NCBI RefSeq assembly: GCF_013113735.1
Contig: NZ_CP053346.1
Coordinates: 3,176,001 to 3,240,000, forward strand
DNA from: Sphingomonas sp. AP4-R1
GTDB taxonomy: Bacteria > Pseudomonadota > Alphaproteobacteria > Sphingomonadales > Sphingomonadaceae
Reading direction: 5' to 3'
DNA: 64,000 bases
Part shown: positions 33,336 to 49,226 of the stretch, piece after piece
Layout: every line of letters starts with the position of its first letter
Numbering within the stretch: position 1 is the first letter of the stretch
Made by a program: the position numbers and the translations under genes
The notes under the pieces: model-generated
The model's database searches: none
The model's input: the letters and a program-made list of their open reading frames with translations, nothing else
What the model was told of the DNA's origin: nothing

Positions 33336-33365
33336 TTGAACATTTCCTGCCTTTAGTGTTATAAG
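33336..33365 (+). promoter_or_regulatory. Candidate sigma-70-type promoter
   Basis: TTGAAC (33336-33341) and TATAAG (33360-33365) with an 18-nt spacer, followed 64 bp later by the ATG of the gene at 33429. Both boxes are close to consensus, in a locally AT-richer stretch between two divergent genes. Confidence 0.5.
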
Positions 33366-33428
33366 CGATGCCGCTTAGTCCTTCCGAAGCACGTGATCGC
33401 TTCGGGACGGCCGGAAGAAGGCGGACCA

Positions 33429-34070: not shown

Positions 34071-35590
34071 TGCTGCGCACCGACGCCGATCACTTGCCCG
34101 TCCCGATCCGGGAGGAACTGCTGCACGTCGCGACGATATTATTCGAGGCGTTTGCCGAGACGACTAAGGGCAGATGCTCCGAACATTATCGGGCGGGCCG
34201 TATTCTTGCGCTGATCCTGCATGGCCCTCATGCCGAGCAGGATTGGGAGCATATCGTGCCGGGAGAAGCGTTCCGGTTGCTGGCGATCGTCAACTACCCA
34301 CGGCTCGCGCGCAGCGAACGCGACTGGCGGCTGGTGCGTGACCGTCTGCGCCGCGCATGGGAGTTCGGCGAGATTGCACGACCTGTGCGTCTTTCCGTCG
34401 AATGCCTCGAACGAATCAACCATGCTCTTGTCGAGGGCGTTCCACATTTCGTCTCGGTCGCCGAACGAGGAATAGCGCTCTACCAGATGGAGGGGTTGCG
34501 CCTCAAAACGCCGCGCCACCTGCCCGCGCGGGAACGGGCCGTTCGTGGCATCGCGGAGTATCTGCGCTGGCACCAAAGCGGCAGCGATTTTCTCGCTGGT
34601 GCGGCCTTCTATCGCGATCAGGGTAACGGGCCAATGACGGCGCTGTTGCTGCATCAGGCGTGCGAGCATCTCTATCTGTGCGTGCTGTGGTCGCTCACCC
34701 TTCATGGCCCGCGCACCCACGCACTGGACGAACTGCGCGAAGCCGCCGAGGCGCTGGATAGCAACCTGACCGCGACGTGGCCGAGGGCAACCCGATTCGA
34801 GCGTCGCGCCTTCGGTTGTATCCGTCGTGCCTATATCGAGGCCCGTTACGGACGCTCCTACAGGATTTCGCCGCAGGAATTGACGTGGGCGTTCGGGCGC
34901 GTCGAGATATTGCAGGAATCGACGGTCCGGGCGTGCGCCGATTACCAAGCGGCGCTGATCGCGGACACGTCAGCTCCCATGCTTCCGGCACCCACAGAAG
35001 CGGCGACAACGGCCACGCTTCCACAGCCCCTCCAATGCACCAACATGCTGAAACGGACATGGCAGATCGCACGCCGTACCGCGCCATCGCGGGTTCACTG
35101 GAACCGGCTCATTCACGTTCGCCGGTTTTGGCATTCGCAGAGATTCACGCAATGGGCCGGGAGCCTGCACTTCGCGATGATCGGACTATGTCTGTTTCTA
35201 GCCGGTGCGGAGGCGGCGCTATGGCGGGTGCGCTCGATCTATTCCGCGCAGACCGTTCGCTCGGAACCCGCAGACCCTTCCGCCGTGCTGGACTTCGATG
35301 TGCGCGCGGACACGGTATTGGGAGCGGTAGGAGATATTGCGAACCGCGCGGGCTACCGGATCAAGGCCACCGAGGATATTTGGGCCGTGCGCTGGACCGG
35401 GGCCTATCGCGCCAAGGCGACAACCTTCGACGCTTTGGCGGACGTCCTGTACGGCTCCGGTCTTTGCCCCGCGATCCGGGGCGACACCATCACCGTGCGC
35501 TATTGCGACAAGAGCCGCCCGCCAAGGGTCGTCTCGATCGAATATCAGACCATGCCGGACGGCACCGTGCGCATGGAGGTGCCGCGCTGA
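34067..35590 (+). CDS. Putative MNT/HEPN protein fused to a membrane helix and STN-like domain
   Basis: A 507-residue protein with an unusual layout. Residues about 15-150 look like a degenerate nucleotidyltransferase (RILALILHGPHAEQDW, EAFRLLAIVN) lacking the normal GSxARG and DxD catalytic residues. Residues about 170-300 resemble a HEPN domain (LLLHQACEHLYLCVLWSL, HGPRTHALDELREAAEAL). A single membrane helix lies at 366-386 (SLHFAMIGLCLFLAGAEAAL). The C-terminus, about 406-480, is STN-like (VLDFDVRADTVLGAVGDIAN, LADVLYGSGL), a fold of secretins and TonB signal receptors. The HEPN part would be cytoplasmic and the STN part periplasmic. Domain calls rest on motifs only. It overlaps traD convergently. 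Confidence 0.6.
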   Translation: MMLRTDADHLPVPIREELLHVATILFEAFAETTKGRCSEHYRAGRILALILHGPHAEQDWEHIVPGEAFRLLAIVNYPRLARSERDWRLVRDRLRRAWEFGEIARPVRLSVECLERINHALVEGVPHFVSVAERGIALYQMEGLRLKTPRHLPARERAVRGIAEYLRWHQSGSDFLAGAAFYRDQGNGPMTALLLHQACEHLYLCVLWSLTLHGPRTHALDELREAAEALDSNLTATWPRATRFERRAFGCIRRAYIEARYGRSYRISPQELTWAFGRVEILQESTVRACADYQAALIADTSAPMLPAPTEAATTATLPQPLQCTNMLKRTWQIARRTAPSRVHWNRLIHVRRFWHSQRFTQWAGSLHFAMIGLCLFLAGAEAALWRVRSIYSAQTVRSEPADPSAVLDFDVRADTVLGAVGDIANRAGYRIKATEDIWAVRWTGAYRAKATTFDALADVLYGSGLCPAIRGDTITVRYCDKSRPPRVVSIEYQTMPDGTVRMEVPR

Positions 35591-35901
35591 TCGCTCCCCT
35601 GTTCCGCCTCGAATGCGCGCTTTCCCTTGCGCTTCCAGACGGCAAGCGCGTTGTCCCGTTCGTCGCCGCGCAGCCGATCGGCCACCGTCAGGAATGCGCC
35701 GTAGAGGGTGGCGCGGTCATCGTCGGTCAGATCGACCAGCCCCGCCTTGATGACAAGGCCACCGAGTTCGATCAGATGCCGCGTGCGTTCCCGGCGAGCA
35801 ACGGCCCAATCGCGCATGTCGGTTCGCGTCTTTCGTGCCTCAAGCCGATGCCGCGCCGCCGTCGAGCGGGAGAGAGCCGCTCGAACCCCGTTCAGGTCCA
35901 C
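35545..35901 (-). CDS. traD: Conjugal transfer protein TraD-like
   Basis: A 118-residue protein with the TraD signature RRERTRHLIELGGLVIKAGLVDLTDDD and a basic, C-terminal helical tail. In Ti-type systems TraD is a small relaxosome accessory encoded after traC. The start may be the upstream position used here or ATG 35817 (MRDWAVARRERTRHLIELGG). The start region overlaps traC by 62 bp; the 3' end overlaps the convergent HEPN-STN gene by 46 bp. A TraG gene, which normally follows, is missing. Confidence 0.78.
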   Translation of the reverse strand: MDLNGVRAALSRSTAARHRLEARKTRTDMRDWAVARRERTRHLIELGGLVIKAGLVDLTDDDRATLYGAFLTVADRLRGDERDNALAVWKRKGKRAFEAEQGSDQRGTSMRTVPSGMV

Positions 35902-36145
35902 CCGCAGGCTTGCCGCCTTTGCCGAGAAAGAAGGCCGCGCCCGCCTTGTGCCAGCCCTCCCGTGTGGTGGCGTCTTTCACCGTGGTGACGTGGAGCAGCG
36001 CCCCGGCGAGTGTGTCAGCGTCGAGCGTATCGGCACCCGTCGCGGCCACCAGTTCGCCAAGCTGATGCACGCGCCGTTCCTTGAGCGCCTTCGCCTTGTC
36101 GGCCAGCGCCTTGAGTTCCGAATCGAAATCCCGTGGTTTACGCAT
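35840..36145 (-). CDS. traC: Conjugal transfer protein TraC-like
   Basis: A 101-residue relaxosome accessory. The family N-terminus MRKPRDFDSELKALADKAKA and QLGELVAATGADTLDADTLA are characteristic of TraC of Ti-type mobilisation regions. The ATG at 36145 is supported by that conserved start; an upstream extension to 36199 is not. It is divergent from traA with the oriT between them, the normal Ti-type arrangement. Confidence 0.85.
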   Translation of the reverse strand: MRKPRDFDSELKALADKAKALKERRVHQLGELVAATGADTLDADTLAGALLHVTTVKDATTREGWHKAGAAFFLGKGGKPAGGPERGSSGSLPLDGGAASA

Positions 36146-36254
36146 CGCAAAGTCTTTCGTTGAGTGGTGATCCGGCGATGATAAGATGAACCCGCCCACA
36201 GTGCAGTAGAGTCGCCGGGACAGTCTGACACCGCCTAGTCCCGTCCGAGAAATT

Positions 36255-36292
36255 TTCGAGAAGGGCGCGCTTATACGTCGTGCCGACGTGCG
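36255..36292. other. Origin of transfer (oriT) with nic-like sequence
   Basis: AAGGGCGCGCTTATACGTCG at 36261-36280 closely resembles the Ti-plasmid/IncP-like nic region (AAGGGCGCAATTATACGTCG), and an inverted repeat ACGTCG-TGC-CGACGT follows at 36275-36289. It lies between the divergent traC and traA genes, the place where oriT sits in Ti-type systems. The nick site itself is inferred from the family, not shown. Confidence 0.75.
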
Positions 36293-36318
36293 CTCAGAAG
36301 TGTAGATGGTATGTCGCC

Positions 36319-39276
36319 ATGGCGATCTACCATTTCAGCGTGAAGGTCATCAGCCGCGCCAGCGGACGCAGCGCCGTCGCTGCCGCCGCCTATCGCGCGG
36401 GCGATCGGCTGCACGACGAGCGGCTCGATCGCGATCATGATTTCCGCGCCAAGTCGGGCGTCGTGCATAGCGAAGTGCTGCTGCCCGACAACGCGCCCGA
36501 GGAATGGCGCGACCGCGAACGCCTGTGGAACGATGTCGAGCGGCAAGAGAAGCGCAAGGACGCGCAGCTTGCCCGCGAAGTCGAGTTCGCCATTCCGCGC
36601 GAGATGACGCAGGCGCAGGGCATCGGGCTTGCCCGCGATTTCGTCGCCCAAGAGTTTGTCGCGTCCGGCATGATCGCCGACCTCAACGTGCATTGGGAAA
36701 TCGGCCCGGATGGTCTGGCCCAGCCGCACGGCCATGTCATGCTCACCATGCGCGAGGTTGGCCCGGATGGCTTCGGCCGGAAGGTCCGGGACTGGAACGC
36801 TACGGCAAATGTCGAGCAATGGCGTGAGCGCTGGGCCGATCATGTCAACACCCGCCTTGTCGAACTCGACATCGACGCCCGCATCGATCACCGCAGTTTG
36901 CAGGCGCAGGGCATCGACCTTGAGCCGCAAAGCAAGATCGGCCCGGCCGCATCGCGCATGGGCGAGCGCGGCCTTGAGTCCGAGCGGATCGAGGATCATC
37001 GCGAGGTCGCGCGCCGCAATGGTGAGCGGATCATAGAGAATCCGCGTCTGGCGCTCGACGCGATCACGCACCAACAGGCGACATTCACCCGCCGCGATAT
37101 GGCGATGTTCATCCACAGTCATTCGGACGGCAAGGAGCAGTTCGACGCTGCAATGAGCGCGGTGCGCGGCTCACCCGATCTCGTCGCCCTGGGCAAGGAT
37201 GGGCGCGGTGAGGATCGGTTTACCAGCCGCGAGATGATCGAGGCCGAGCAGCGAATGCACCGCGCCGTCGAGATGCTGGCGGAGCGCGAGCGGCAGAGCG
37301 TCAGCAAGAGCGGGCGGGAAGCGGCGCTGGCGCGCGCGGAGCGACGTGGGTTGTTGTTGTCGGGCGAACAGCGCGCGGCGTTCGACCATGTGACCGATGG
37401 ACGAGGGCTTGGCGTGGTCGTTGGCTATGCCGGGACCGGGAAGAGCGCGATGCTGGGCGTGGCGCGGGAGGCTTGGGAGTCGGCGGGTCTCACTGTGCGC
37501 GGCGTGGCGCTCTCAGGGATCGCCGCTGAGGGCTTGGAGAACGGCTCCGGCATCGCGTCGCGTACCATCGCCAGCATTGAGCATGGCTGGGCGCAGGGCC
37601 GCGATCTGCTCAACCCCCGCGTCATGCTGGTGATCGACGAAGCGGGCATGGTCGGCACGCGCCAGATGGAACGTCTGTTGTCCCATGCCGCAGCGGCGGG
37701 CGCACAGGTGACGATGGTCTTCGACCCGCAGCAGTTGCAGGCGATCGAAGCGGGGGCAGCGGCCCGGTCGATCCACGAGCGGCATGGCGGCGTCGAGATC
37801 ACCGAGGTTCGCCGACAGCATGAAGGCTGGCAGCAGCACGCCACCCGGCATCTGGCGACGGGGAGGACCGGCGAAGCCATCCGAGCCTATGCAGAGCATA
37901 ACATGGTTCACGCCGCCGACACGCGCGAGGCCGCACGGGGCGACATGCTGGATCGCTGGGACCGCGAGCGGCAGGGCCGCCCGGATGACAGCCGCGTCAT
38001 GCTCACCCACACAAATGACGAAGTGCGTAAACTCAATGAAGCGGCGCGCGGACGGATGCGCGATTCCGGCGAACTGGGCGATGATGTGCTGGTGAAGACC
38101 GAGCGAGGGCCGCGCGCCTTCGCCAGCGGCGACCGTGTGATGTTCCTGCGCAACGAGCGCGGGCTAGGCGTGAAGAACGGCACACTGGGCACCGTCGAAC
38201 AGGTCAGCGAACGCCATATGGCCGTACGCACCGATATTGGCCATTCCGTGGCGTTCGACACAAAGGACTATCGCGACCTCGATCATGGCTATGCGGCCAC
38301 GATCCACAAGGCGCAGGGCATGACCGTCGATCGCGCCTATGTCCTCGCGACACCGGGCATGGACAGCCACGGGGCCTATGTCTCCCTGTCGCGCCACCGC
38401 GACGGCGTGCAGCTTCACTATGGCGGCGACGATTTTAAAGATCAGTCCCGGCTCGTCCGCGCCCTGTCGCGTGACCGCGCCAAGGACATGGCGACGGATT
38501 ACGAGCGGGCCGACCCGGCGCAGCAGTTCGCCGAGCGGCGCGGGATCACGTTTGGCGAGCGCGTCGCCGAGATCATCCGCAAATTGCCGGAGAAGGCGCG
38601 CGGGATCTTCGACAGTTTCCGGCCGAAGATCGCGGCGCATCGCGAGGCAGACAGGTTCGAGGGCTTCCGGCCCGATGCGCCGCCGCGCGACGAACCACCG
38701 CAGCTAGAGCCGGTCCGTGCGGGTGGCCAGCGCGGCGCGGTCGAGCGCTACGCCAAGGTTCGCCAAGAAATCGAACGGATGCACGATTCCGGCTTGGCGG
38801 CCATGCCGCACCAGACGGCTGCGCTGGACCGCGCCAGAGAGGCCCTCGACGCGGTCCGGCCCCATGCCTCCGACGATCTTGGCGCGGCCTTCGAGCGCAG
38901 CCCGGAGCTTGTCCAGGAGGCAGCCGAAGGGCGAGGCCAGGCTGCGCTGCGGGCGATGCAGCTAGAGGCCGAAATCCGCATCGACCCGTTCCAGCGCGCC
39001 GACAGATTCGTGGAGGGCTGGCAGCAGTTGCAGCGCCACCATGAGGAGTTGGTGCGCGACGGCAATTTTCGGGGCGCGAAGACCGCCGCGCAGCAGATGG
39101 CCGACATGGCGAAGAGCCTTGAGCGCGACGCGCAGCTTGAATCGGTGCTGGGCCTGCGCAGCCGCGAGCTTGGCCTTGAGATCGGCGAGAGCATGGGCCG
39201 CAACCTATCGCGCGACCTCGCTGATTCCGTCCCCTTCGATCACGGCCGGGACATCAGCCACGGCATGAGCCGCTAA
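36319..39276 (+). CDS. traA: TraA relaxase/helicase (Ti-type)
   Basis: A 985-residue protein. The N-terminal MobA/MobL relaxase domain starts at AIYHFSVKVISRASGRSAVAAAAYRAG and has the His cluster QPHGHVMLTMRE (His137, His139). A RecD/TraI-like helicase follows with Walker A GYAGTGKS at residues 369-376, then the Asp-Glu-Ala-Gly motif VIDEAGMVGT. The long C-terminal region (about 700-985) is charged, helical and typical of Ti-type TraA. ATG 36319 begins the conserved N-terminus. Intact; it would nick at the adjacent oriT and unwind the DNA. Confidence 0.93.
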   Translation: MAIYHFSVKVISRASGRSAVAAAAYRAGDRLHDERLDRDHDFRAKSGVVHSEVLLPDNAPEEWRDRERLWNDVERQEKRKDAQLAREVEFAIPREMTQAQGIGLARDFVAQEFVASGMIADLNVHWEIGPDGLAQPHGHVMLTMREVGPDGFGRKVRDWNATANVEQWRERWADHVNTRLVELDIDARIDHRSLQAQGIDLEPQSKIGPAASRMGERGLESERIEDHREVARRNGERIIENPRLALDAITHQQATFTRRDMAMFIHSHSDGKEQFDAAMSAVRGSPDLVALGKDGRGEDRFTSREMIEAEQRMHRAVEMLAERERQSVSKSGREAALARAERRGLLLSGEQRAAFDHVTDGRGLGVVVGYAGTGKSAMLGVAREAWESAGLTVRGVALSGIAAEGLENGSGIASRTIASIEHGWAQGRDLLNPRVMLVIDEAGMVGTRQMERLLSHAAAAGAQVTMVFDPQQLQAIEAGAAARSIHERHGGVEITEVRRQHEGWQQHATRHLATGRTGEAIRAYAEHNMVHAADTREAARGDMLDRWDRERQGRPDDSRVMLTHTNDEVRKLNEAARGRMRDSGELGDDVLVKTERGPRAFASGDRVMFLRNERGLGVKNGTLGTVEQVSERHMAVRTDIGHSVAFDTKDYRDLDHGYAATIHKAQGMTVDRAYVLATPGMDSHGAYVSLSRHRDGVQLHYGGDDFKDQSRLVRALSRDRAKDMATDYERADPAQQFAERRGITFGERVAEIIRKLPEKARGIFDSFRPKIAAHREADRFEGFRPDAPPRDEPPQLEPVRAGGQRGAVERYAKVRQEIERMHDSGLAAMPHQTAALDRAREALDAVRPHASDDLGAAFERSPELVQEAAEGRGQAALRAMQLEAEIRIDPFQRADRFVEGWQQLQRHHEELVRDGNFRGAKTAAQQMADMAKSLERDAQLESVLGLRSRELGLEIGESMGRNLSRDLADSVPFDHGRDISHGMSR

Positions 39277-39292
39277 ACAAGGAGAAGACGAT

Positions 39293-40021
39293 ATGGACGA
39301 CGAACAGTCACTGTTAAACGAACCCGCCGCCAAAGAGGAATCCGCTGCGCAGGCGTTCGCGCGGCTGGACGGCCGTATCGCAATGATGGCGCGCGCGGTC
39401 GAGCATCTGGCAGCCGAGCGGGCGAGTATCGACATTCCCGATTACAGTGCGACGCTGACGCAGATTAACACCCGCCTTGCCGCCGTCGCGCAAGGGCTGG
39501 CAGGCATCGCCGAGAAGCCCGCCATGCAGTTGACCCCGGAAGGGCTGGCGGCGCGGATGGACGCGGCGGCCGAGAAATCCCGCAGCACCGACAAGGTGAC
39601 CATCAGGGAGGCGCGAGAAGCTCATCAGGAAGCAGTGCGAATCATCCACGGCCTTGTCGGCATCGTCCGCGGAACCCACGAGCAGCGCAAGCATCAGCTA
39701 CAGGCCATAGGCGGCGGCGTGTTGATGGGATGCCTGCTATGGTCATTCCTTCCCGGCGTGGTGGCGCGCATACTGCCCGACGACTGGCATATGCCGGAGC
39801 GTATGGCGCGGCACATGGTTGGCGAGTTGACCCTATGGGAGGCGGGCACTCGAATCATGCGCGCCGACAGTCTGGAGACATGGCAGTCCATCGCCGACGC
39901 TGCCGAGACGCGGCGTGACAATCGGGAAGCCATCGACGCTTGCGAGCAAGATGCGCGCAAGAGCCAGCGGCCTGTGCAATGCACGATCAGGATCAGAGCG
40001 CGCAACATAAATGGCACTTAG
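39293..40021 (+). CDS. DUF6118-like protein
   Basis: A 242-residue protein found next to TraA in sphingomonad islands. An N-terminal helical, coiled-coil-like region (AFARLDGRIAMMARAVEHLA, ATLTQINTRLAAVAQGLAG) precedes one membrane segment (about residues 140-156, IGGGVLMGCLLWSFLPGVV) and a soluble C-terminus. It starts 16 bp after traA with a good GGAG site and is in its operon. The family is assigned by resemblance; role in transfer unknown. Confidence 0.75.
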   Translation: MDDEQSLLNEPAAKEESAAQAFARLDGRIAMMARAVEHLAAERASIDIPDYSATLTQINTRLAAVAQGLAGIAEKPAMQLTPEGLAARMDAAAEKSRSTDKVTIREAREAHQEAVRIIHGLVGIVRGTHEQRKHQLQAIGGGVLMGCLLWSFLPGVVARILPDDWHMPERMARHMVGELTLWEAGTRIMRADSLETWQSIADAAETRRDNREAIDACEQDARKSQRPVQCTIRIRARNINGT

Positions 40022-40109
40022 CGGCACTTGGTTAGAGCGGAGTAACAAGTCCTTCTGGACCCGGCTTTAGTTCAGCTTCCCTCGGTAGACATACCCGGTT
40101 AGACACGCG

Positions 40110-42209
40110 CTACTTCCCGGCATCCAGAAGGTCGTCAAGGAACTCAGACGCAGGCTTCACCCCACTTACATGGAGCCGGTCACGTGCCCGCGTGCAAGCG
40201 ACATAGAACAAGTGGCGCTCGGTATCGAACACCTCCCGGAGTTCGTCCTCATCTGTCGCTTCATCAATGCGCGTTTGCAGCGGTAGCGCCTCGTCGTCGC
40301 ACGCCATGACGGCCACGGCTTTGAACTCCAGTCCTTTGGCGAAGTGCATGGTTCCAAGCGCAACGCATTCCGGGTTATCCTCTACCCGGTCGGAGAGTTG
40401 ACGGCAGGCAAGGCCGGTTAGGCCAATCGCCGCCCGCGCCCGCGCGAGTTGTTCGTCCGATCGCACGAATACGCCCATCTCGAACGGGGCGATCTCCGCA
40501 TCGCTTGCCGCCCGTAAAAAGGCGGCGACAGCGTCGGCCTCGGCGGCATCATTCTCACATTCTGCAATTTCTGGCGGTGGTCCTTCAAAGACCGATTGCG
40601 CGTCCGCGCGGCTATCCTCGATGCCGTCCACGTCAGTGACTTTCGGCGGCAACAGCTTGTCGGCTGCCTCCCGGATTTGGCGCGATGTGCGGTAATTGAT
40701 GCGGAGCGATGATGACCGCCCACGCACATCGACGCCCAGCGACTTCCACGAAAAAGGATGCTGAAAGATGCGCTGGCCAAGGTCGCCCGCAAAGAACAGT
40801 GCGCCTGGTCCGCCCGCCAGCGCCGCCATCATCCGCAGTTCGTTGACGCCCAAGTCCTGCGCCTCATCGACGATGACATGGGTGTAGAGCTTGTCCCCAC
40901 GGGTGGCATAGTGCGCGGCCACGTCGGCATAGAGTTGGCACAGCGTCACCATGCCCCGCGCCTTGAGTGTTTGGCGCGCCGCCATGAAAACGGGCCACAG
41001 CACTTCTCGCTGCTTCGCCCCCAGCCGGTTGCGTCTGCCGACACGCGGCACTGACGCATAGGCATCAAGATAGGCAATGCCCCATCCATCTACGACTTGC
41101 CGCCATTCCGCCCATACGAAGCGCGCTGGCAGTTCGGCATAGCGTTGGGCCGCAATCGCCCGGTCTAGCGCCGCTTGCTGCACATCGGGCGCGGCCACGA
41201 CTGGGCGCCGTCCTGTCGCCAGTTGGTAGAGGTCGCCCGCCGCGTCCTCAAACGATGCAACCGAAACGCGGTCGATCATCCCGTGATCGCCGGTTAGCAG
41301 AATCGCGAGCTTGGCGCGCAGGGCGTTCGCCAATGGGCGCGAGAACGTGGTCAGCAATACTCGTGCATGGGCATCCTCGCGCACGACCCGCGCCGCGCGG
41401 TGGAGCGCCACGATAGTTTTTCCCGTTCCCGCCGATCCGGTGACGCGCGCCGGGCCAGCGAAATCGCGGTCCACAATGTCGCGCTGCGACGGGTGGAGGA
41501 ATACGCTCCATTTGTCCCACGGGAAATCGAGCGCGGCTTGCAGGTCTTCGCTGGTCGCAATGGTGATGACACGGCGCAGCGTATCGGGATGGGCAAAAGG
41601 CGCGTTCGCCTTCTGCATCCAGACCGCCTGGGGCACGATCCCGGTCGCGGCATAGTCGAGCAAGGCTTCGGCGACTTCGGCGGGGAGCCGATCGCTCATC
41701 GTGAAGAAGCGATCCTCCGTCCAGCTTCGAACGTCCTCCACCCAATCCTCGGGCGTGCCAATGTCTAGCAACTCGTCAGCGGTTAGCGCGGCGAAGAGAG
41801 CGGGCGCGGGCGGTTGCGCCGCGACGGGTTCGGGCGCGCGTTCGGCGATCAGTGGGAATTGCGGCTGAGCTTCCTCAATCCGCTCATGCACTTCGACAAT
41901 CTGAATCGCATTGGTACGGGGATGCGCCTCGATCCGGCGGCGCTCCGCCCACGCATAGGCTTTGTCGTGGTGATCGACATAGGCGAGCATGAAGCTCGCT
42001 TCCGTCTTGTGGATGATGATGCGAATGTCTTGATTGACCCGCGCCGACCAGAAATTCGGATCGCGACCATTGTCCAGCCGGTGCATTTGGAGTCCCGGTC
42101 GTTCCGGGCTGAGTTGGAGGTCGAACGCAGCCGTCTTCACCTGCTTCTGTTCCTGCCCGGTCAGGCGTGTCAGCGCGGCCGTGAAGGTGTCGGCGATCTG
42201 GAAGTTCAC
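40110..42209 (-). CDS. UvrD/Rep-type helicase with N-terminal ParE-like domain
   Basis: A 699-residue protein. The first roughly 100 residues (VKTAAFDLQLSPERPGLQMH, NFWSARVNQDIRIIIHKTE, HDKAYAWAER) look like a RelE/ParE-fold toxin domain. A UvrD-like superfamily 1 helicase follows: Walker A GSAGTGKT at 258-265, DEAQ box at 448-451 (VIVDEAQDLGV), and late motifs SLRINYRTSRQIREAA, TMHFAKGLEFKAVAVM, FYVACTRARDRLHV. It is the last gene of an operon with a zinc-ribbon-like protein and type III-like Mod and Res; its start overlaps the preceding gene by 4 bp. A defence-related role is likely by context. Confidence 0.85.
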   Translation of the reverse strand: MNFQIADTFTAALTRLTGQEQKQVKTAAFDLQLSPERPGLQMHRLDNGRDPNFWSARVNQDIRIIIHKTEASFMLAYVDHHDKAYAWAERRRIEAHPRTNAIQIVEVHERIEEAQPQFPLIAERAPEPVAAQPPAPALFAALTADELLDIGTPEDWVEDVRSWTEDRFFTMSDRLPAEVAEALLDYAATGIVPQAVWMQKANAPFAHPDTLRRVITIATSEDLQAALDFPWDKWSVFLHPSQRDIVDRDFAGPARVTGSAGTGKTIVALHRAARVVREDAHARVLLTTFSRPLANALRAKLAILLTGDHGMIDRVSVASFEDAAGDLYQLATGRRPVVAAPDVQQAALDRAIAAQRYAELPARFVWAEWRQVVDGWGIAYLDAYASVPRVGRRNRLGAKQREVLWPVFMAARQTLKARGMVTLCQLYADVAAHYATRGDKLYTHVIVDEAQDLGVNELRMMAALAGGPGALFFAGDLGQRIFQHPFSWKSLGVDVRGRSSSLRINYRTSRQIREAADKLLPPKVTDVDGIEDSRADAQSVFEGPPPEIAECENDAAEADAVAAFLRAASDAEIAPFEMGVFVRSDEQLARARAAIGLTGLACRQLSDRVEDNPECVALGTMHFAKGLEFKAVAVMACDDEALPLQTRIDEATDEDELREVFDTERHLFYVACTRARDRLHVSGVKPASEFLDDLLDAGK

Positions 42210-42988
42210 TTGCGCTTCCTTCTCGCTTTGCGCCTTCTTGCAGCGCGTTTCTTCGACGAAGATACTGCTTTCGTGCTCTTGCGTTCGATACTGACTTCCT
42301 GTGGTACGAAATCCGCAAAGCTGAAGAAGGACATTCTATTGCCGCTCAAATATAGGGTTTCTTCGGAAGATGGCAGGTCAGGGCGGGAAGAGGTGGAAAA
42401 TCGAATTGACCTATTTGCCGGATCGGAAGCGTTATAGACAATGAAGTAGGCCAGCCCTTCACGATCCGACCGCTTTCTGACAACGCAGCGATCCCAGCCA
42501 TGGCCTGTTCGCAGCGGCGGTGAGTAGTCGTCATCGACTTCACTTTCCTCAACCAAGGCGTCGGATGCTAGGCGGCGAATGACGACGCTAATGCCCGGAC
42601 CTTTTGCAACAGGAATTGACTGACCGACCGAAACGCCGGGACGCCCAATGGGGTCTGGTTCGTTGTCGGTACAGGGATGCTTGGGCCACGGCGGACCAAG
42701 ATCATCAAAGAAAACTCGGCTCCCATATTCGTTCTGGTAGAAAAACACCTGCGCGCCGCAAACCGGACAAGTCGCGTTGGGGATCGTGAAAGATGCGTTT
42801 CGGCCATCGGGAAAGCTAGGCGGCGGTGCTGCAGCTCGCGGCGGCGATGGCTGAGTTGGAGGCGGTGGAGGCGGTGAATAATAGGAATAACGATCCCAGT
42901 CGTAGCGATCCACCGTGTGGCCGCTGACCCAAAAGGTCGTGCCGTTGCTGTTGGTCCGATAGTGCCCGGATCGCGTGAAGCGGGACAC
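42206..42988 (-). CDS. Proline-rich protein with CxxC-type zinc-ribbon-like motif
   Basis: A 260-residue protein of no assigned function. An N-terminal region (residues about 1-30) is followed by a Pro-rich linker, and then a conserved block with CPVCGAQVFFYQNEYG, VFFDDLGPPWPKHPCTD: two Cys and a later His/Cys that could bind zinc. The tail is strongly basic (KKRAARRRKARRKRK), which suits nucleic-acid binding. It starts overlapping the mod stop by 1 bp and its stop overlaps the helicase start by 4 bp, so it is a fixed member of this operon. Confidence 0.6.
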   Translation of the reverse strand: MSRFTRSGHYRTNSNGTTFWVSGHTVDRYDWDRYSYYSPPPPPPTQPSPPRAAAPPPSFPDGRNASFTIPNATCPVCGAQVFFYQNEYGSRVFFDDLGPPWPKHPCTDNEPDPIGRPGVSVGQSIPVAKGPGISVVIRRLASDALVEESEVDDDYSPPLRTGHGWDRCVVRKRSDREGLAYFIVYNASDPANRSIRFSTSSRPDLPSSEETLYLSGNRMSFFSFADFVPQEVSIERKSTKAVSSSKKRAARRRKARRKRK

Positions 42989-45906
42989 TACACCCCGAAC
43001 ACTTTCATCACTTCATCGCCGAAGTGATTGATGACCTTGACCGCGATCCGCCCCGTGCTGGGACGCGCAAAGGGGCGGGAGGTGTCGCGGTAGAGGGTGG
43101 CCCAGGCGTCCTCGTCCACCTCTGCCTTCAACGCGGTCTTGAGCTGTTTGTAGGGATCGTTCGCGCCAACGAAATAGGCGTGGCGGACGAAGAAACTTTC
43201 CTCGTTATAGGCCGTGTCGATGAACCATGCGGCGATGCCCTTCACGTCGTTGGAGCGGACTTCGCCGGTGTTGGGATCGTAGATGTCCACGCCGTTGACC
43301 TTCACCGCGATGCGCCCGTCCGGCTGTTCCAATATATCTATGTCGGGTTCGCCGAAGATCGTGAAGAGGTTGCCCTTGCCGGTGTTCTTGAGATCGTCGG
43401 CCATGTGCAGGTCAGGGTTCATCTTGGCCTTGAGGACGGGCAGCGGGCCAAGGCGGGACAGCTCGGAAGCGTGCGCGTCGAAGGCGAAGCTGCACGCGAT
43501 CAGCACGTCGAAGCGGCTCTCCGCCGCCTCCCGCGCCGCCGCCGTAAGCTGGACTCGGCTCACGGTGCCAAATTCCGGGCCGATGAAGATGGCCGCTCGG
43601 CGCTCGGTCTCACCCTCCATGAAGCGGCCTTCCGCGCCGATATATTCGCCCGGCCAAGGGGTCAGGCTGGTGAACTCGATACGGTCGCCACGCTCGATCT
43701 GGTGGACGCCCGCCGTTTTCAGATGTTCGAGAACCATCGTCGCAAAATCGGTCTGGCTGTCGCTCTGCGTTTCGCGCGCCACCTTGCCGTCGGCGGCATC
43801 GGCCAAATGGATCAGCTCATCGGCATCGGCGGGAACGATGCGATGTGGTGACAGGCTCTCGACCGTGAACGGCCCCGCGACACGGATGCGGTTCGGATCG
43901 GCATAGGGCTTGTCATAGAGATATTCGACATCGGCGGCGCGGGCGATGGAGGCGTCGATTTCCCGCTGCCGGGCAATGCGCGCATCCCACCACGCCTTAT
44001 GGACGCCGACGACGTTGGACGACCACCCGGCCAGCGCCTCGCGCGGGATTTCCCATTCCTGCCAGTCGTTGCCGGTTATCTGGTTCAACTCGGCGCGTAG
44101 CGGCTCCAGCCGTGGCTGCCACTTGTCCCAGATGATGTCGATTTCAGTGTTATTGGTGATCGACTTGACGGTGATGTGCGGAACCCGCTCATAAACGAAA
44201 CCTTGGCGAATGTTATTTTGGATTGGAGCTTCGTTTGGAAGCTTTCCAGCAAGCTCCGCTTCCTTGCGCTTTCCCTCAAGGCTATCGGCCAACAGATACC
44301 AAGGATAACGCGCAGACATGAGCCTTGTGCGGGCAAGCGCCAATGCGACCCGGCTAGTGTCGATGGTAATCCAACGTCGGCCCATATGTTCAGCAGCAAA
44401 AGCGGTAGAGCCAGAGCCGCAGGTCGGATCGAGGACAAGATCGCCCGGATCGGTCGCCATAAGCATACAGCGTTCGATCACTTTAACGGCGGTTTGAACG
44501 ACAAATATTTTGTCTGTCGGCGGCGCTGTATCTGTCCACACGTTATGGAAGGGGGATACAGGATAGTCCTCGTTAAATAGCCGATACCGAAGTGTGGCTC
44601 CGCCTGAGTAAGGCTCGATACGGGCGGCCTTGGCTAACCGATCCATGCCGGCCTTCGGACTTTTCCAGCTTCGTCCGGGCGGTGGGGTGTAGGTTTTCCC
44701 CTGATACTCATAGGGATATATCCCAGTCGCAAATGGACCAACCGGGTACAGTGCGTATAGTTGGTAAACGCGAGCGTCAGCAGGAAGGGTGCTATGTGAG
44801 CGTACCTCTTCCGGTTGCATCTTACGATATGAGCCATCTGGAAACATGATCTGATTCCAATGGCCGTCACCCTCAATGTCCGATTTGTAGAACATACGGC
44901 GAAACTTTATTTGTGATTTGTCTTTCGCATACCACGCGATGTAATCGACGACGCCTTCCATCAGCCGTCCACCAAGTGCCATTCTCGTCTTAAATGATAT
45001 AAGTTCTACAAAGTTATCAGCACCAAATACCTCATCACACAGTGACCGAATAAGATGCTGGTTTTCAGAACCGATCTGAATAAATACAGAGCCACTTTCC
45101 GTAAGAAGCTCTTTCATAACGGAGAGTCTATCGCGCAAATAGGTCAGGTACGAGTGCGTCCCATCCTTCCACGTATCACGAAATGCCTTGACCTGTTCAG
45201 GTTCACGGCTGAGATCAACTTGCTTTTCGCTGACGGCGCGATTTTGCGTAGAAACCTGCCAGTTTGATCCGAATTTAATCCCGTAGGGCGGGTCGAAATA
45301 GATCGCTTGGACCTTGCCTTTCAGCGCCTCGCGCTCGGCAAGGCTCGCCATCACCTGCAAGCTGTCGCCCAGGATCATCCGGTTCGCCCAGTGCTGATCG
45401 TGCTGGTAGAACTCGGTGCGCTGCATCGGATCGTCGAGGCCGTTGAAATCGGCGAACAGATCGGGCGCGTCGGTCTTGTCCTCGCGCGCTACCTTTGACT
45501 GGCGGACCAAATCGTCGATGATCGCCTTGGGATGCACCTTTTCCTGTGTGTGGATCATCGGCGCGGTGACGATCAGGTCCGACCAATCCTGCCGATCCTT
45601 GCCGCGCCACACCAGTTGCGCGTCGCCAATCTCGATGCTGCCGGTGGCGTTAAGCTGCGCCACCTGATCGCGCGTCAACGTGATCTTTGCGCCGTTCCAC
45701 ACGATCTGCGGATCAAGGTCCTCATCGCGCGCCCGCGTCTCGCCCGCCGCCAAGGGCCGGGCGCGGGGATAGGTGACGGGCGGCAGCGGCTGCATCTCCT
45801 CCTGCATCGCCGCCAGATCGGCCATCTCCGCCGTCGGGATATTGACTCGCCCTTCCGGGTGATTGAGCGTGCCGACTTGCTTCGGCCCTTTTGGTGTGCG
45901 GGCCAT
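42988..45906 (-). CDS. Type III-like restriction-modification methyltransferase (Mod)
   Basis: A 972-residue site-specific DNA methyltransferase. The catalytic motif DPPY is at residues 205-208 and the S-adenosylmethionine motif DPTCGSGS at 493-500, so the order is that of beta-class adenine-N6 methyltransferases, as in type III Mod. Large C-terminal regions (about 600-972) probably hold target recognition. Its start overlaps the res stop by 1 bp and its stop abuts the zinc-ribbon-like gene. It would mark host DNA against the Res nuclease. Confidence 0.88.
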   Translation of the reverse strand: MARTPKGPKQVGTLNHPEGRVNIPTAEMADLAAMQEEMQPLPPVTYPRARPLAAGETRARDEDLDPQIVWNGAKITLTRDQVAQLNATGSIEIGDAQLVWRGKDRQDWSDLIVTAPMIHTQEKVHPKAIIDDLVRQSKVAREDKTDAPDLFADFNGLDDPMQRTEFYQHDQHWANRMILGDSLQVMASLAEREALKGKVQAIYFDPPYGIKFGSNWQVSTQNRAVSEKQVDLSREPEQVKAFRDTWKDGTHSYLTYLRDRLSVMKELLTESGSVFIQIGSENQHLIRSLCDEVFGADNFVELISFKTRMALGGRLMEGVVDYIAWYAKDKSQIKFRRMFYKSDIEGDGHWNQIMFPDGSYRKMQPEEVRSHSTLPADARVYQLYALYPVGPFATGIYPYEYQGKTYTPPPGRSWKSPKAGMDRLAKAARIEPYSGGATLRYRLFNEDYPVSPFHNVWTDTAPPTDKIFVVQTAVKVIERCMLMATDPGDLVLDPTCGSGSTAFAAEHMGRRWITIDTSRVALALARTRLMSARYPWYLLADSLEGKRKEAELAGKLPNEAPIQNNIRQGFVYERVPHITVKSITNNTEIDIIWDKWQPRLEPLRAELNQITGNDWQEWEIPREALAGWSSNVVGVHKAWWDARIARQREIDASIARAADVEYLYDKPYADPNRIRVAGPFTVESLSPHRIVPADADELIHLADAADGKVARETQSDSQTDFATMVLEHLKTAGVHQIERGDRIEFTSLTPWPGEYIGAEGRFMEGETERRAAIFIGPEFGTVSRVQLTAAAREAAESRFDVLIACSFAFDAHASELSRLGPLPVLKAKMNPDLHMADDLKNTGKGNLFTIFGEPDIDILEQPDGRIAVKVNGVDIYDPNTGEVRSNDVKGIAAWFIDTAYNEESFFVRHAYFVGANDPYKQLKTALKAEVDEDAWATLYRDTSRPFARPSTGRIAVKVINHFGDEVMKVFGV

Positions 45907-48900
45907 TATGCGGCTTCCTTCTTCGTCAAATCGTCCACAAGTTTCGCAAATGCCCTTTCAATCTCAAATACGTCGGTGAACTCGGCAAACGCCCATGCGC
46001 CGAACGTGCCAAGATTGTTCACGCCCGGCACCCACATCGTCTTCATCGTCTCCGCCTTGAGCTGAGCATCGCCCTTGCGATACCCCTTCGTCTCAAGGAT
46101 CAGATTGAGCGGTTCGGCATCGCCGGTATCGAGCCGCACGATCATGTCGGGGATATAGCGTCGGGGCGTCGATCCATCGCGGTAAGGCACTTCAAAACCC
46201 AACCCCTGGTTCTTGACGTAGGCCGTCACGCGGGGATGCGTTTCCAGCACGCGGGCCAGTTCAGCCTCCCATGTGCTGTCGCAAACGACGTGGCTGACAT
46301 GGCTGCGGCGCAGATCGGTGGCGTAGGTGTCCTTGCTCGTCGTGAAGTTGACGAAGCGCGTGCTGCTCTTGGGATTATAGGGATCGAGGATCGCCTTGAT
46401 CCGTGACGCTCCATGCTCGAACCGCTGGCAGGCGAGGAAGATGCGCTCAGCCGCCTGATCCTTGATTTCCAGATAGTCGAGCACGCCCATCGGCACGCCC
46501 TTGAGGACGAGATAGCCACCGTCCAGCCACTCGCGGACGACGCGGCGCACCTGTCCGAAGAGGTGAACGGGCAAGTCGCCATCATCCGCTGCGAACCGCT
46601 TGAGCAGGTGTGCAGCAAGGCTATAGGCGATGGCGCTTGGCCGCTGATCGCCGACGCCCGCCGCGCGCAATTCCTCGCTCTGGCCGACGATACCCTGCAT
46701 CGTGACGCGCGATGGGCCGATCATCGACGGATCGACGACAAGGCGGCTGTCGTCCGTGAACTGCGCCGCGATCCGTTCTTCGGGCAGATCGACGCGATAG
46801 CCTTCGACGCGGGGGAATATGATTTCAAGTTCCGGGCGCAGAGCCACCCGTTCCTTGACCGCCTGCACCCGCGTGACGAGTTTCGGCGGCATGGGCTTCA
46901 CCACGACCGGCTTGGCCGTGAAGTCAAACGGAATGCCGAGAATGTCGGCATATTCGACATCGAACAGGCCGTCGCTGTTCAGCTCATAGGATTGGCGACG
47001 CAGGCCACGTCCGACCACCTGCTCGCACAGCAACTGCGTGCCGAATGCGCGGACGCCAAGGATATGGGTGACAGTGTTGGCGTCCCAGCCTTCGGTGAGC
47101 ATTGATACCGAGACGATGCAGCGGATGCTTTCGCCAAGGCGTCCGACACGCCCGACCGTGTTCATCACCTCACGCAGCAATTCCGCATCGTCGATGTCGT
47201 CGGCATCCTCTACGCGGCCTGTGCGGTCCTGCCGTTCGCGCCGGAATTGCTCGATTTCGGCGGAGGCCAATGCGCGGAAATCTTTGTCGAGCGCCTCGCC
47301 GCTTTCGAGTTGGGCGCTGTCGATCAGCAGCGTGGGCGCGCGCCCGATCCGGTTGCCATGCTCGTCATAGTTGCGGAACAACGGCAGGTGGCCGCGATGG
47401 ATATTGATGGCTTCACCATCCTTGTTCGGACGGTCCCAGCCCGAAATCCATTCATAGACCAGTTTCGATGTGGACGTATTATTACAAACGACGATGAATA
47501 CGGGCGGCACGGGAATGCCGGCCCGCCGCCACTCGTCATCGACCTTCACATAGTGATTGTAGAGCGCGTCCAGTGCGGTCAGCAATTCGGTGGGGAGCTT
47601 GAGCGGGTTCAGCTCTTCGGACTTTTTCGCGCCCTTTTTGGGCATATCCTTGCCGATATGGTCCCACAGCTTCCGGTAGATCGGCATATCCGCGATCGGC
47701 AGATTATCGGCGACCGGCACGCGCGGCAGTTTCACGATGCCGCATTCGATCGCGTCCATCAGCGAGAAGTCGCTGATCACCCACGGGAACAATGTGCCTT
47801 CGACATAGCCCGATCCGGCAAGGAAGAAGGGCGTTGCGGACAGGTCATATACTGCACGGACGCCTACCTTGCGCTTCAGCGCCTTCAGGCCGTTGATCCA
47901 GAGCCGGGCGGCCTCCTTGTTTTCCTTGGCTTCGGCCTTTGTGTCCGCGTCGGCGATTTCTTCGACGCTGCCTTGCGGGCGTTCTTCGTAGCAGTGGTGC
48001 GCCTCGTCGTTGACGACGACGACATTCTTCATCGCCAGCAGATCGCCGCAGGCGCGCTGGAGCATCTGCCCTTCAGTTTCCGTCGTTTTTGGCGCTTCGC
48101 CGCGCCCTTGCAGCAGGCTTTTGCCGACCTTGGACAGATCCAGCGTCTCCCGGCGCTTGAACGAATGATAGTTGGTAATGACCACCTTCGCCTTGGCGAT
48201 GTCGCCAAGCATATCAGACGGCACGATGTCGCGGAACCGATAGTAGTTGTCGGGATCGTCCGGCAGCAGCACACGGAGCCGATCCTTAATCGTGATGCCC
48301 GGCGCAACAAGGAGGAAACCACGGCTGAAATGTGAGCTGGTCGGGGAGCGCACTGCGTTCACCGACTGCCATGCGATTATCATCGCCATGACCGTTGTTT
48401 TGCCCGCGCCGGTCGCCATCTTCATCGCGATGCGGAGCAAGTCCGGGCTAGACTGCCGGTTCGCTCCGCGCAGATGCTCCCATAGATGGGCATAGCGTTT
48501 TTGGCTGGAAGCAACCTCCGTTAGCCAGATGACCGTCTCGACAGCTTCAACCTGACAGAAGAAGGGACGCAGACCTTCAACCTCGGTGCGCCGCCAATAG
48601 TGCAACAGCTTCGCGGTCGCAGGCGTCACGCCCCAATCCCGATCGCTCGGCAGGCTGCGCCACGACGCAACGTGCGAGCGGATTTCGTTGATGATCGGCT
48701 TCGGGTTGTATTCCTGATCCCCGTCGCTCAGCCCCGCCGCATCCTCGAACACCATAGAGGTTTGGCTGGCCTTGCCCGACTTGCGCTTGGGCTTGGGAAC
48801 CGGCGTGATGAAGTCGCAGGGGCGGCGGCCATCAATCGGCGGCACTTCGAGCGGCTGGCCGTCAGCGTCCAGCGCATGATAGCGCGTCGGCACTTCATAC

Positions 48901-48941
48901 GGCGAATTGAGAATCGGATAGTCGAAAAAGCTCTGAGACAC
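45906..48941 (-). CDS. Type III-like restriction endonuclease subunit (Res), BPTD_3080-like
   Basis: A 1011-residue protein. The N-terminal region (SFFDYPILNSPYEVPTRYHA, FITPVPKPKRK) resembles the BPTD_3080 restriction family. A superfamily 2 helicase core has Walker A at about 175-183 (MATGAGKTT), a DEAH box at 312-315, YDLSATPFFLAGSGY and VGRGLRRQSY. The C-terminal PD-(D/E)xK nuclease has PD at 931-932 and ETK at 950-952 in LILETKGYR. All catalytic motifs are intact. It starts the four-gene minus-strand operon and is separated from tRNA-Glu by about 270 bp. Confidence 0.88.
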   Translation of the reverse strand: MSQSFFDYPILNSPYEVPTRYHALDADGQPLEVPPIDGRRPCDFITPVPKPKRKSGKASQTSMVFEDAAGLSDGDQEYNPKPIINEIRSHVASWRSLPSDRDWGVTPATAKLLHYWRRTEVEGLRPFFCQVEAVETVIWLTEVASSQKRYAHLWEHLRGANRQSSPDLLRIAMKMATGAGKTTVMAMIIAWQSVNAVRSPTSSHFSRGFLLVAPGITIKDRLRVLLPDDPDNYYRFRDIVPSDMLGDIAKAKVVITNYHSFKRRETLDLSKVGKSLLQGRGEAPKTTETEGQMLQRACGDLLAMKNVVVVNDEAHHCYEERPQGSVEEIADADTKAEAKENKEAARLWINGLKALKRKVGVRAVYDLSATPFFLAGSGYVEGTLFPWVISDFSLMDAIECGIVKLPRVPVADNLPIADMPIYRKLWDHIGKDMPKKGAKKSEELNPLKLPTELLTALDALYNHYVKVDDEWRRAGIPVPPVFIVVCNNTSTSKLVYEWISGWDRPNKDGEAINIHRGHLPLFRNYDEHGNRIGRAPTLLIDSAQLESGEALDKDFRALASAEIEQFRRERQDRTGRVEDADDIDDAELLREVMNTVGRVGRLGESIRCIVSVSMLTEGWDANTVTHILGVRAFGTQLLCEQVVGRGLRRQSYELNSDGLFDVEYADILGIPFDFTAKPVVVKPMPPKLVTRVQAVKERVALRPELEIIFPRVEGYRVDLPEERIAAQFTDDSRLVVDPSMIGPSRVTMQGIVGQSEELRAAGVGDQRPSAIAYSLAAHLLKRFAADDGDLPVHLFGQVRRVVREWLDGGYLVLKGVPMGVLDYLEIKDQAAERIFLACQRFEHGASRIKAILDPYNPKSSTRFVNFTTSKDTYATDLRRSHVSHVVCDSTWEAELARVLETHPRVTAYVKNQGLGFEVPYRDGSTPRRYIPDMIVRLDTGDAEPLNLILETKGYRKGDAQLKAETMKTMWVPGVNNLGTFGAWAFAEFTDVFEIERAFAKLVDDLTKKEAA

Positions 48942-49120
48942 ACATCCCCCTAGGCTCGGTGATATGTGCCCTTCACACTACTGACAAGGCGAACGGTGGT
49001 CGTGTCCCGGTTTTCGCCAATGCGATCGGAGACTTTGATTGTTCAAGCCGCCAAGGCGACTGACTGAAGAAAAGCTTGTTGCTAGCCAGCGTCCCGTACG
49101 GGGGCGCATCATCCCATTAA

Positions 49121-49150
49121 GACCCACGCAAAATGTGGGAACATTTGGGG
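49121..49150. promoter_or_regulatory. Putative integrase arm-binding motif, right end
   Basis: TGTGGGAAC at 49134-49142 matches the motif next to the integrase; together with CCCAC at 49123-49127 it forms a small inverted repeat. It lies about 70 bp inside the right attachment core, as expected for an arm site. Confidence 0.4.
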
Positions 49151-49209
49151 TGCCATCCTTTTGGAACTCTAACGTTATCACACAAAATCAATGCGATAAA
49201 TCGCTTGAC

Positions 49210-49226
49210 TGGTGACCCCTACGAGA
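49210..49226. repeat. attachment-site core, right copy (within tRNA-Glu 3' end)
   Basis: The 17 bases TGGTGACCCCTACGAGA are identical to 15551-15567. They complete the tRNA 3' end, so integration leaves a working tRNA gene. Confidence 0.85.

Follow-up and report, generated by a model that had tools for sequence, protein, structure and literature searches.

A type III restriction operon with a probable three-gene core and two variable cargo slots in an integrative mobilisable element of Sphingomonas

The window analysed here, the whole stretch of 64,000 nucleotides from Sphingomonas sp. AP4-R1, contains an integrative mobilisable element of ~33.7 kb (15551..49226) located in a tRNA-Glu gene (49210-49284), with ends marked by a 17-bp direct repeat (15551-15567 and 49210-49226) that is a copy of the tRNA 3′ end. 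A tyrosine integrase gene (15696..16937, + strand; Phage_integrase, Phage_int_M and Arm-DNA-bind_3 matches) lies beside the far end repeat, and a MobA/MobL relaxase with helicase domains is encoded at 36280..39276 (+ strand; MobA_MobL E 9e-73). The tRNA end of the element is occupied by four open reading frames, all on the minus strand, that encode in order Res (45906..48941), Mod (42988..45906), a zinc-ribbon protein (42206..42988) and Hel (40110..42209). Successive genes overlap by 1 bp at the Res/Mod junction (TAATG), 1 bp at the Mod/zinc-ribbon junction (TAGTG) and 4 bp at the zinc-ribbon/Hel junction (GTGA), and a gene for a DUF6118 protein (39293..40021, + strand; E 4e-18) is convergent to Hel and lies outside the operon. 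The original prediction of a four-gene, same-strand operon with overlaps of 1–4 bp is borne out by these positions and junction sequences, and its placement in a mobilisable element by the relaxase, integrase, tRNA-Glu and 17-bp repeat.

Res, the product of the first core gene, is a 1011-residue type III restriction endonuclease of the BPTD_3080 family, scoring 1257.7 bits against NF046055, for which the curated cut-off is 800. Domain models and motifs identify an SF2 helicase (ResIII, 37.9 bits in Pfam; motifs GAGKT, DEAH, SAT and GRGLRR) followed by a C-terminal PD-(D/E)XK domain, where the RE_endonuc match of 23.1 bits is just below the Pfam cut-off of 23.4 and the endonuclease motif itself (PD...ETK) is present. 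Mod, the product of the second core gene, is a 972-residue beta-class DNA methyltransferase (PADLOC MTase_III PDLC03632, 1161.5 bits; N6_N4_Mtase, E 2e-26) and a sequence relative of EcoP15I Mod (4zcf, E 9e-14), with DPPY preceding the AdoMet motif I sequence PTCGSGST; the loosely defined FQ pattern is absent. The Res helicase and PD-(D/E)XK motifs, the Mod DPPY and the CPVCG of a 260-residue zinc-ribbon protein had all been predicted and are confirmed. Adjacent genes encoding a beta-class DPPY methyltransferase and an SF2 plus PD-(D/E)XK endonuclease are features shared with the classical type III systems EcoP15I and EcoPI, from which this locus differs in its Mod of 972 residues, in a Res for which a PDB sequence search gave no relative at E<=0.001, and in having one core gene more, along with two slots for cargo.

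Hel, the product of the third core gene, is a 699-residue protein in which a UvrD-like SF1 helicase core (residues 239-690; 40140..41495, minus strand) is identified by UvrD_C and UvrD-helicase domain matches, by the motifs GSAGTGKT, DEAQD, GDLGQRI, YRTS, MHFAKGLEF and CTRARD, and by Foldseek, the best match of the full model (pLDDT 85.5) being UvrD 4c30 (E 9.9e-21). It also matches the model for GajB (E 6e-26), the UvrD-like defence helicase of Gabija, from which it differs in its N-terminal domain; Gabija itself was rejected as an assignment, as GajA does not appear among the matches listed for the other three proteins of the operon (25 of 57 for Mod). A phage origin of Hel was likewise rejected, with just two phage records matching and these covering 19% of the protein.

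The N-terminal domain of Hel (residues 1-90; 41940..42209, minus strand) had been predicted to be ParE-like, a claim that is weak or unsupported by sequence and stands by modelled structure. The match to a HigB-like family (E 0.017) is below the cut-off, a profile search of the PDB gave RelE3 at E 0.13 and YoeB at E 0.27, and neither a single-sequence PDB search nor a comparison with one annotated RelE/ParE toxin yielded a match. For a model of residues 1-100 (pLDDT 87.3), the PDB search gave 33 matches at E<=0.001. Of these, 31 carry the label of a toxin-antitoxin protein (RelE, YoeB, YafQ, ParE or another), and the remaining two are hypothetical proteins of H. pylori; the best match is YoeB 2a6r (E 8e-6, TMt 0.73). 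Because the structural match is what decides the assignment, we describe the domain as RelE/YoeB-like, and the model supports its adopting a RelE fold. A classical RelE/ParE toxin-antitoxin pair was considered and rejected, as there is no antitoxin gene adjoining Hel among ORFs of at least 80 aa, its neighbours being the zinc-ribbon gene and the convergent DUF6118 gene.

Five residues (F9, R63, H81, A84 and Y85) are invariant across 23 Hel N-terminal domains and the nearest folds are those of YoeB, RelE and YafQ, with a ribosome-bound CRISPR ancillary effector (8phj) also matched at rank 50 (E 8e-3). These features are in keeping with Hel being a guard that responds to processed phage DNA, or to Res/Mod when these are stalled or inhibited, by setting off RNA cleavage that depends on the ribosome, the genes in the slots then being parallel abortive effectors. 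We consider this quite improbable, however, as the PDB matches displayed are only 9-23% identical and a binding role for the RelE-fold domain fits equally well.

The zinc-ribbon protein (260 aa; CPVCG and HPC) matches no family in Pfam, NCBIfam or PADLOC and nothing significant in the PDB (best E 0.095). Its CPVCG...HPC core (residues 74-106; 42671..42769, minus strand) is the stretch common to other plasmid proteins, and most of the plasmid relatives share just this ~45-residue core. Among the 20 plasmid records with a zinc-ribbon relative that are listed (of 36), 19 have no Res match. The tight overlaps of 1, 1 and 4 bp had suggested a fixed four-part system, with a dedicated sensing or recruiting role for the zinc-ribbon protein and the helicase serving as a second effector, and the Res-Mod-zinc-ribbon-Hel order does recur in L007, L044, L066 and L135, with slot 1 also filled in L007 and L044. 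The zinc-ribbon family is present, however, in slot 2 of only 4/65 complete loci (and in L135, from a neutral sample), the other loci having an empty slot 2 or unrelated genes there, and L053, which of the loci in the distance set is nearest to the window (87% Res identity), carries an unrelated slot-2 gene. The zinc-ribbon gene is thus neither a fixed fourth component nor a conserved sensor; it is interchangeable cargo, and since slot 2 turns over we reject the fixed four-gene system, which we regard as highly improbable.

Comparisons of the core genes were made with a table of 103 loci (the window and 102 related loci) restricted to loci with Res; the distant-Res loci L033-L035 and L050-L052, in none of which Hel is seen, were set aside. 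From GTDB the best 80 of at least 579 confirmed relatives were taken, a choice that favours close kin, and two genome samples serve as a neutral check. Five near-identical loci were dropped before counting, leaving 98, of which 74 non-duplicates have at least 9 kb of sequence downstream of Res and are evaluable. Mod is present downstream of Res on the same strand in 71/74 of these and Hel in 60/74, the latter count including L114, which has short fragments only (84 and 62 bits), and L116, in which Hel runs off the end of the stretch; 14/74 have no Hel downstream. With the long-enough distant-Res loci L034, L035, L050 and L051 added, Hel is found in 60/78.

Res and Hel also share genomes far more often than expected, although the sampled genomes behind the P values are not independent: among 289 genomes of the class, 17 have Res, 16 have Hel and 11 have both (0.9 expected; P 2e-12), and among 398 genomes of the phylum the corresponding numbers are 31, 28 and 18 (2.2 expected; P 3e-16). 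Thirteen of the 31 Res genomes in the phylum sample have no Hel, some of these sequences being incomplete, and 17 of the 18 phylum Hel matches of at least 890 bits are in Res-bearing genomes. Of 16 helicase loci that score highly and have sufficient sequence upstream, 15 have both Res and Mod there, with split genes in one (L152). Ten of 40 Res plasmid records occur among the 40 Hel records listed (of 71), and in all ten Res identity is at least 57%. Distances between loci (n=52) are correlated for Res and Hel (0.90), Res and Mod (0.83) and Mod and Hel (0.83). These comparisons show Res-Mod-Hel as a conserved core, ordered and co-diversifying, with slot contents that turn over, in the clade in which Res is ~55% identical or more. 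Conserved co-occurrence of all four genes in order was therefore not borne out, the core being three genes, and of the two extra genes proposed to belong with Res and Mod the helicase is retained (60/74 loci, and genome sharing) and the zinc-ribbon gene is not (4/65). Correspondingly, the zinc-ribbon gene is often found without Res/Mod and the helicase largely is not, although diverged helicases work with a different methyltransferase system. As Hel is missing from distant Res relatives and from part of the samples, it is either a core gene of one clade or an accessory that is often present.

Most type III systems consist of two genes, mod and res (PMC8259958), and Hel and the slot genes could be linked neighbours in a defence island, without joint function, around an ordinary system of this kind. 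The absence of Hel from 14/74 loci is compatible with this, as is the Rhodococcus locus L034, with Res and Mod and no Hel match. The co-diversification of Res and Hel (r 0.90), the concentration of high-scoring Hel matches in Res genomes (17/18), the seven of 65 complete loci with a bare core (both junctions <=120 bp), in which Hel abuts Mod, and the position of Hel at the close of the operon all argue against it, and we think such an arrangement unlikely. Since a two-gene composition is typical and not obligatory, the assignment to type III, made on the beta-class Mod with DPPY before the AdoMet motif and on the SF2 helicase and PD-(D/E)XK of Res, stands with Hel making this a variant.

Two slots are present in these operons, one at the Res/Mod junction (slot 1) and one at the Mod/Hel junction (slot 2), and unrelated genes lie in them between the core genes and change between close relatives. 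In the window there is no gene in slot 1, and the zinc-ribbon gene occupies slot 2. We recovered 149 slot genes, which fall into 97 clusters, 70 of them singletons. Slot-gene picking favours the operon strand, and without that preference the longest ORF of a filled gap still lies on this strand in 95/104 cases. Slot junctions are <=20 nt in 132/200 cases, compared to 5/51 before Res and 3/32 after Hel by the same gene-picking rule; a looser control using the longest ORF within 1.5 kb (0/59 before Res, 3/46 after Hel) is not like-for-like. Among the closest 25 locus pairs only one has a slot family in common, many partners having an empty slot. The multi-member families are confined to one slot in 25 of 27 cases, compared to a mean of 9.4 and a maximum of 18 in 5000 shuffles. 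Exchange by recombination in the flanking core genes would account for the fidelity of families to one slot, part of which could reflect shared ancestry.

Pfam searches, covering 58/97 slot families plus the zinc-ribbon family, gave matches above the cut-off for 34/59 scanned slot proteins, many of them conflict-type, and none for the other 25 or for the zinc-ribbon protein. Effector-type domains among the slot genes include SIR2, TIR, HEPN and nucleases, and PADLOC searches with 90/97 slot representatives identified matches to HEC-01A, HEC-07, PDC-S05 and PDC-S13. Matches to AriA, PtuA and GajA among slot AAA-ATPases may well be to the same few proteins.

We favour the interpretation that Res, Mod and Hel are the three core genes of a type III operon whose two cargo slots hold embedded back-up defences, and consider it probably correct. 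From what is known of these families, Mod would mark self DNA at asymmetric sites that it recognises, and Res with ATP would cut unmethylated incoming DNA. Hel might act after cleavage, travelling on broken DNA and unwinding or clearing it, with its RelE-fold domain perhaps a docking or toxic module, and the slot genes would be co-expressed with the core as back-up defences and swapped via recombination in the conserved core genes that flank them. A broader possibility, which we rate as rather unlikely, is that Res-Mod-Hel is a general immune chassis in which DNA that is unmethylated or half-processed is detected and Hel links this to effectors that can be interchanged, each slot having its own functional class of cargo (slot 1 regulators or sensors, for instance, and slot 2 killers), exchanged as cassettes through core-gene recombination. 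If the three-core-gene interpretation is correct, one clade within a common restriction family works as a machine of three genes and not as a pair, and its helicase would link DNA restriction with RelE-type toxin folds. The two junctions would then be catalogues of candidate defence genes (70/97 slot families are seen once in the set), and looking in the slots would be a straightforward way to find new immune effectors.

Embedded defences are already published in other systems. Hma is among the systems in which HEC and PDC genes lie embedded (Payne et al. 2024, as cited in PMC12111858 and PMC12629846), and these resemble the present loci in having unrelated defence genes lodged between core genes, whereas the present host is a type III operon that has a third gene and two slots, each with families of its own. 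The back-up effectors of BREX and BREX-related loci, described in PMC12839542, are similarly nucleases and RNases of various kinds within a locus that is conserved and restriction-like; the core machinery of those loci is different, and the word UvrD is absent from the main text of that paper. A limited search of open-licence literature excluding preprints, by title and start of abstract, gave no Res-Mod-UvrD operon with cargo slots among the papers listed. Also comparable within the type III class are the m4C operons with a conserved extra SF2 ATPase gene of unknown function 5′ of mod (Murray et al. 2021, PMC8259958), which likewise carry a conserved helicase-like gene. Here, in contrast, the extra helicase is SF1 and UvrD-like, has a RelE-fold domain and is encoded 3′ of mod, and cargo lies between the core genes. 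Bordetella systems appear in Table 4 of that paper and, guessing from names, its lists may include the BPTD_3080-type Res family. A diverged Hel is also encoded 3′ of a trio of DrmD-like, type IIG/DrmMI-like and DruE-like genes, so Hel is not specific to type III.

The Sphingomonas window encodes four overlapping genes, all on the reverse strand and as described in the original prediction: a type III restriction endonuclease (Res, 48941-45906), its DNA methyltransferase (Mod, 45906-42988), a zinc-ribbon protein (42988-42206), and a UvrD-like helicase (Hel, 42209-40110), with the junction sequences TAATG (Res/Mod), TAGTG (Mod/zinc-ribbon), and GTGA (zinc-ribbon/Hel). Res belongs to the BPTD_3080 family over its full length (1257.7 bits against a cut-off of 800), Mod matches a PADLOC type III methyltransferase model along its length (1161.5 bits) and has EcoP15I Mod as a sequence relative, and structure comparison gives UvrD, PcrA, and Rep as the nearest solved folds of Hel. 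The expected catalytic motifs are present in Res, Mod, and Hel; the zinc-ribbon protein has no match in Pfam, PADLOC, or NCBIfam.

The proposal that the helicase belongs to the Res/Mod system is supported by related loci from other genomes and plasmids (L-numbers). Res relatives were drawn from plasmids, 289 genomes of the same class, and GTDB contigs (the best 80 of 579), and Res, Mod, and Hel were mapped on them by HMM; 103 entries including the window, less 5 near-duplicates, gave 98 loci, of which 74 have at least 9 kb of sequence downstream of Res and form the evaluable set. Mod lies downstream of Res on the same strand in 71 of these 74 and Hel in 60 (including L114, with short Hel fragments only, and L116, where the end of the stretch interrupts Hel), with a convergent Hel in one further locus. 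All three genes occur in order in 65 loci, and because both junctions are 120 bp or shorter in seven of these complete loci, the bare operon is Res-Mod-Hel. A rearranged form is seen in L032, L041, and L042 (from Tistrella and from two loci whose Res sequences are nearly identical), in which Mod precedes Res and a convergent Hel lies downstream.

As the GTDB set favours close relatives, we also used two neutral genome samples. Res is present in 17, Hel in 16, and both in 11 of the 289 class genomes (0.94 expected, P 2e-12), and in 31, 28, and 18 of 398 phylum genomes, respectively (2.2 expected, P 3e-16), P values that are overstated because the genomes are not independent. Hel matches of at least 890 bits in the phylum sample fall in Res-bearing genomes in 17 of 18 cases, and both Res and Mod are upstream in 15 of the 16 high-scoring Hel loci with upstream sequence, L134 having Mod only. 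Pairwise distances among Res, Mod, and Hel correlate at 0.83-0.90 (52 loci).

The contents of the Res/Mod junction (slot 1) and the Mod/Hel junction (slot 2) vary from locus to locus, and in 41 of the 65 complete loci each of the two measures 250 bp or more. Counting genes of 90 aa or more, the slots hold 149 (126 in complete loci and 23 in slot 1 of loci lacking Hel); by similarity these fall into 97 clusters, of which 70 have a single member. Of 104 filled gaps, 95 have their longest ORF on the same strand as the operon. Junctions of 20 nt or less account for 132 of 200 in the slots, whereas, under the same picking rule, spacing this short is seen for only 5 of the 51 same-strand genes that precede Res and 3 of the 32 that follow Hel, indicating that the operon spans Res to Hel. 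Slot contents turn over quickly: no slot family is common to L059 and L060 (Res 93% shared) or to the window and L053 (87%), and only one of the 25 closest locus pairs shares a family, many pairs having an empty slot in one partner. Multi-member clusters keep to a single slot in 25 of 27 cases (5000 shuffles gave a mean of 9.4 and a maximum of 18). We propose that slots are exchanged by homologous recombination in the conserved flanks, which would explain this fidelity; shared ancestry may add to it. Homologues outside the core span were found in the same locus set for 17 of the 149 slot genes.

Pfam was run on 59 slot proteins representing 58 of the 97 families: 34 exceed a curated cut-off, and the other 25 have nothing above it. 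Matches include SIR2 beside HerA, TIR, HEPN and HepT, NYN, DUF4411 with an M78 peptidase, Macro, GmrSD_N, NO VEIN C-terminal (two families), HNH, REase-ARP, YhcG, Mrr, Fic, Schlafen AlbA_2, subtilase, OLD- or SMC-like ATPases, SNF2 helicase, and BRO/RhuM/ORF6N proteins; 23S rRNA IVP, DUF2971, DUF4062, Lactamase_B, and SDH protease are less telling. PADLOC, run on 90 of the 97 family representatives, matched 371 models, the 25 listed including HEC-01A, HEC-07, PDC-S05, PDC-S13, AriA, PtuA, and GajA, and no single model reached more than four representatives. This spectrum is as expected for embedded defence genes. The SNF2-type slot-2 gene (L037:3082-5952, by Pfam; L049:7127-9991, clustering with it) is large, unlike most slot genes. 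Slot 2 of L038 (3960-7253) holds an AAA ATPase and subtilase pair, and relatives of the AAA gene also occupy slot 2 of L083 and L091.

The zinc-ribbon gene, predicted to be a fixed component, is instead one slot-2 family, seen in the window, L007, L044, L066, and L135. Among the 289 class genomes the family is found in two (E<=1e-6), each time within a Res-Mod-Hel operon. Plasmid records that share its CPVCG...HPC core number 36; of the 20 of these listed, Shinella is the only one among the 40 Res-bearing plasmid records. The surroundings in eight of these records are mixed, including conjugation genes, BREX genes at a distance of a few kb, and a nuclease-helicase pair resembling AddAB. The protein could, as a guess, be a DNA- or RNA-binding accessory.

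Hel does not accompany the whole Res family. It was not found by HMM mapping in the distant-Res loci L033-L035 and L050-L052, and adding the four distant-Res loci with enough downstream sequence changes the count from 60/74 to 60/78. Of the 40 Res-bearing plasmid records, ten also appear in the Hel listing (40 of 71 records), and Res identity in these ten is always at least 57%; for two Methylibium plasmid records (Res 59%) Hel is absent among the matches listed, and in the one examined a transposase gene follows Res. Hel is missing from 13 of the 31 phylum-sample genomes with Res, in some because of truncation. Slot 1 of the cyanobacterial L033, where Hel was not found, holds a UPF0175 and DUF3368 pair (15088-15832), presumably toxin-antitoxin-like.

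In L133, L149, L150, L151, and L153 a lower-scoring Hel relative (490-660 bits) comes after two or three very large genes, judged by size only (the third in L133 is not a single open frame on the locus map), and plasmid relatives in L004 and L005 are placed in the same way. In the latter two, PADLOC matches the large genes to DrmD (L004), to methyltransferases of type IIG or DrmMI, and to DruE-like helicases. The predicted second system comprises a DrmD-like helicase, a type IIG/DrmMI-like methyltransferase, and a DruE-like helicase, followed by a diverged RelE-fold/UvrD helicase. One Hel (L008) adjoins a DUF4011 protein, and together these neighbours indicate that Hel-family helicases serve as partners in several systems, most of which include a methyltransferase.

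The ParE-like domain predicted on the helicase is only hinted at by sequence. The N-terminus has a HigB-like match under its cut-off (E 0.017), and its profile finds RelE3 (E 0.13) and YoeB (E 0.27) in the PDB; a single-sequence search gave no RelE-type match, and comparing profiles with that of one annotated RelE/ParE toxin likewise gave none. The predicted structure of residues 1-100 (pLDDT 87.3) backs a RelE fold: of 33 PDB matches at E<=0.001, 31 carry RelE, YoeB, YafQ, ParE, or other toxin-antitoxin protein labels and the remaining two are hypothetical proteins from H. pylori, the top match being YoeB (E 8e-6, TM 0.73 on target). F9, R63, H81, A84, and Y85 are invariant in 23 Hel N-terminal domains, including two distant ones.

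In type III systems, Mod methylates the asymmetric site that it recognises, and Res cuts unmethylated DNA in an ATP-dependent manner. Beside the gene content, order, conservation, and slot turnover observed here, Hel might act on restriction products or intermediates, its RelE-fold part could be a docking module or second weapon, and slot genes may back up the core. Payne et al. (2024 preprint) reportedly describe embedded defences in Hma and type I systems. Published studies report type III operons with an extra ATPase, an SF2 protein encoded 5' of mod (PMC8259958), whereas Hel is UvrD-like and follows Mod; others report embedded defences for Hma and type I systems (PMC12111858, PMC12629846) and back-up effectors for BREX and Dnd (PMC12839542, PMC10853773). 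A three-gene core with two slots was not found among the matches listed from open-licence literature. Within this limited search, the Res-Mod-Hel core with two slots appears to be a new form of known arrangements.

The operon was predicted to lie in a mobilisable element, and this is supported. A 17 bp repeat of the tRNA-Glu 3' end (repeat 15551-15567; tRNA-Glu 49210-49284), an adjoining tyrosine integrase (15696-16937), and a MobA/MobL relaxase (36280-39276) outline an integrative mobilisable element of ~33.7 kb in tRNA-Glu (15551-49226), with the operon at the tRNA end, 268 bp from tRNA-Glu. G+C falls to 50–63% across much of its length. The element also contains an APH-family phosphotransferase gene (21200-22147; Pfam APH, 58.6 bits), a DDE_3 transposase (24023-25120) that we take to be IS630-like, and a low-G+C reverse-strand stretch (26572-31128) that encodes a lactonase-like beta-propeller protein and has a weak, sub-cut-off match to TonB-plug.
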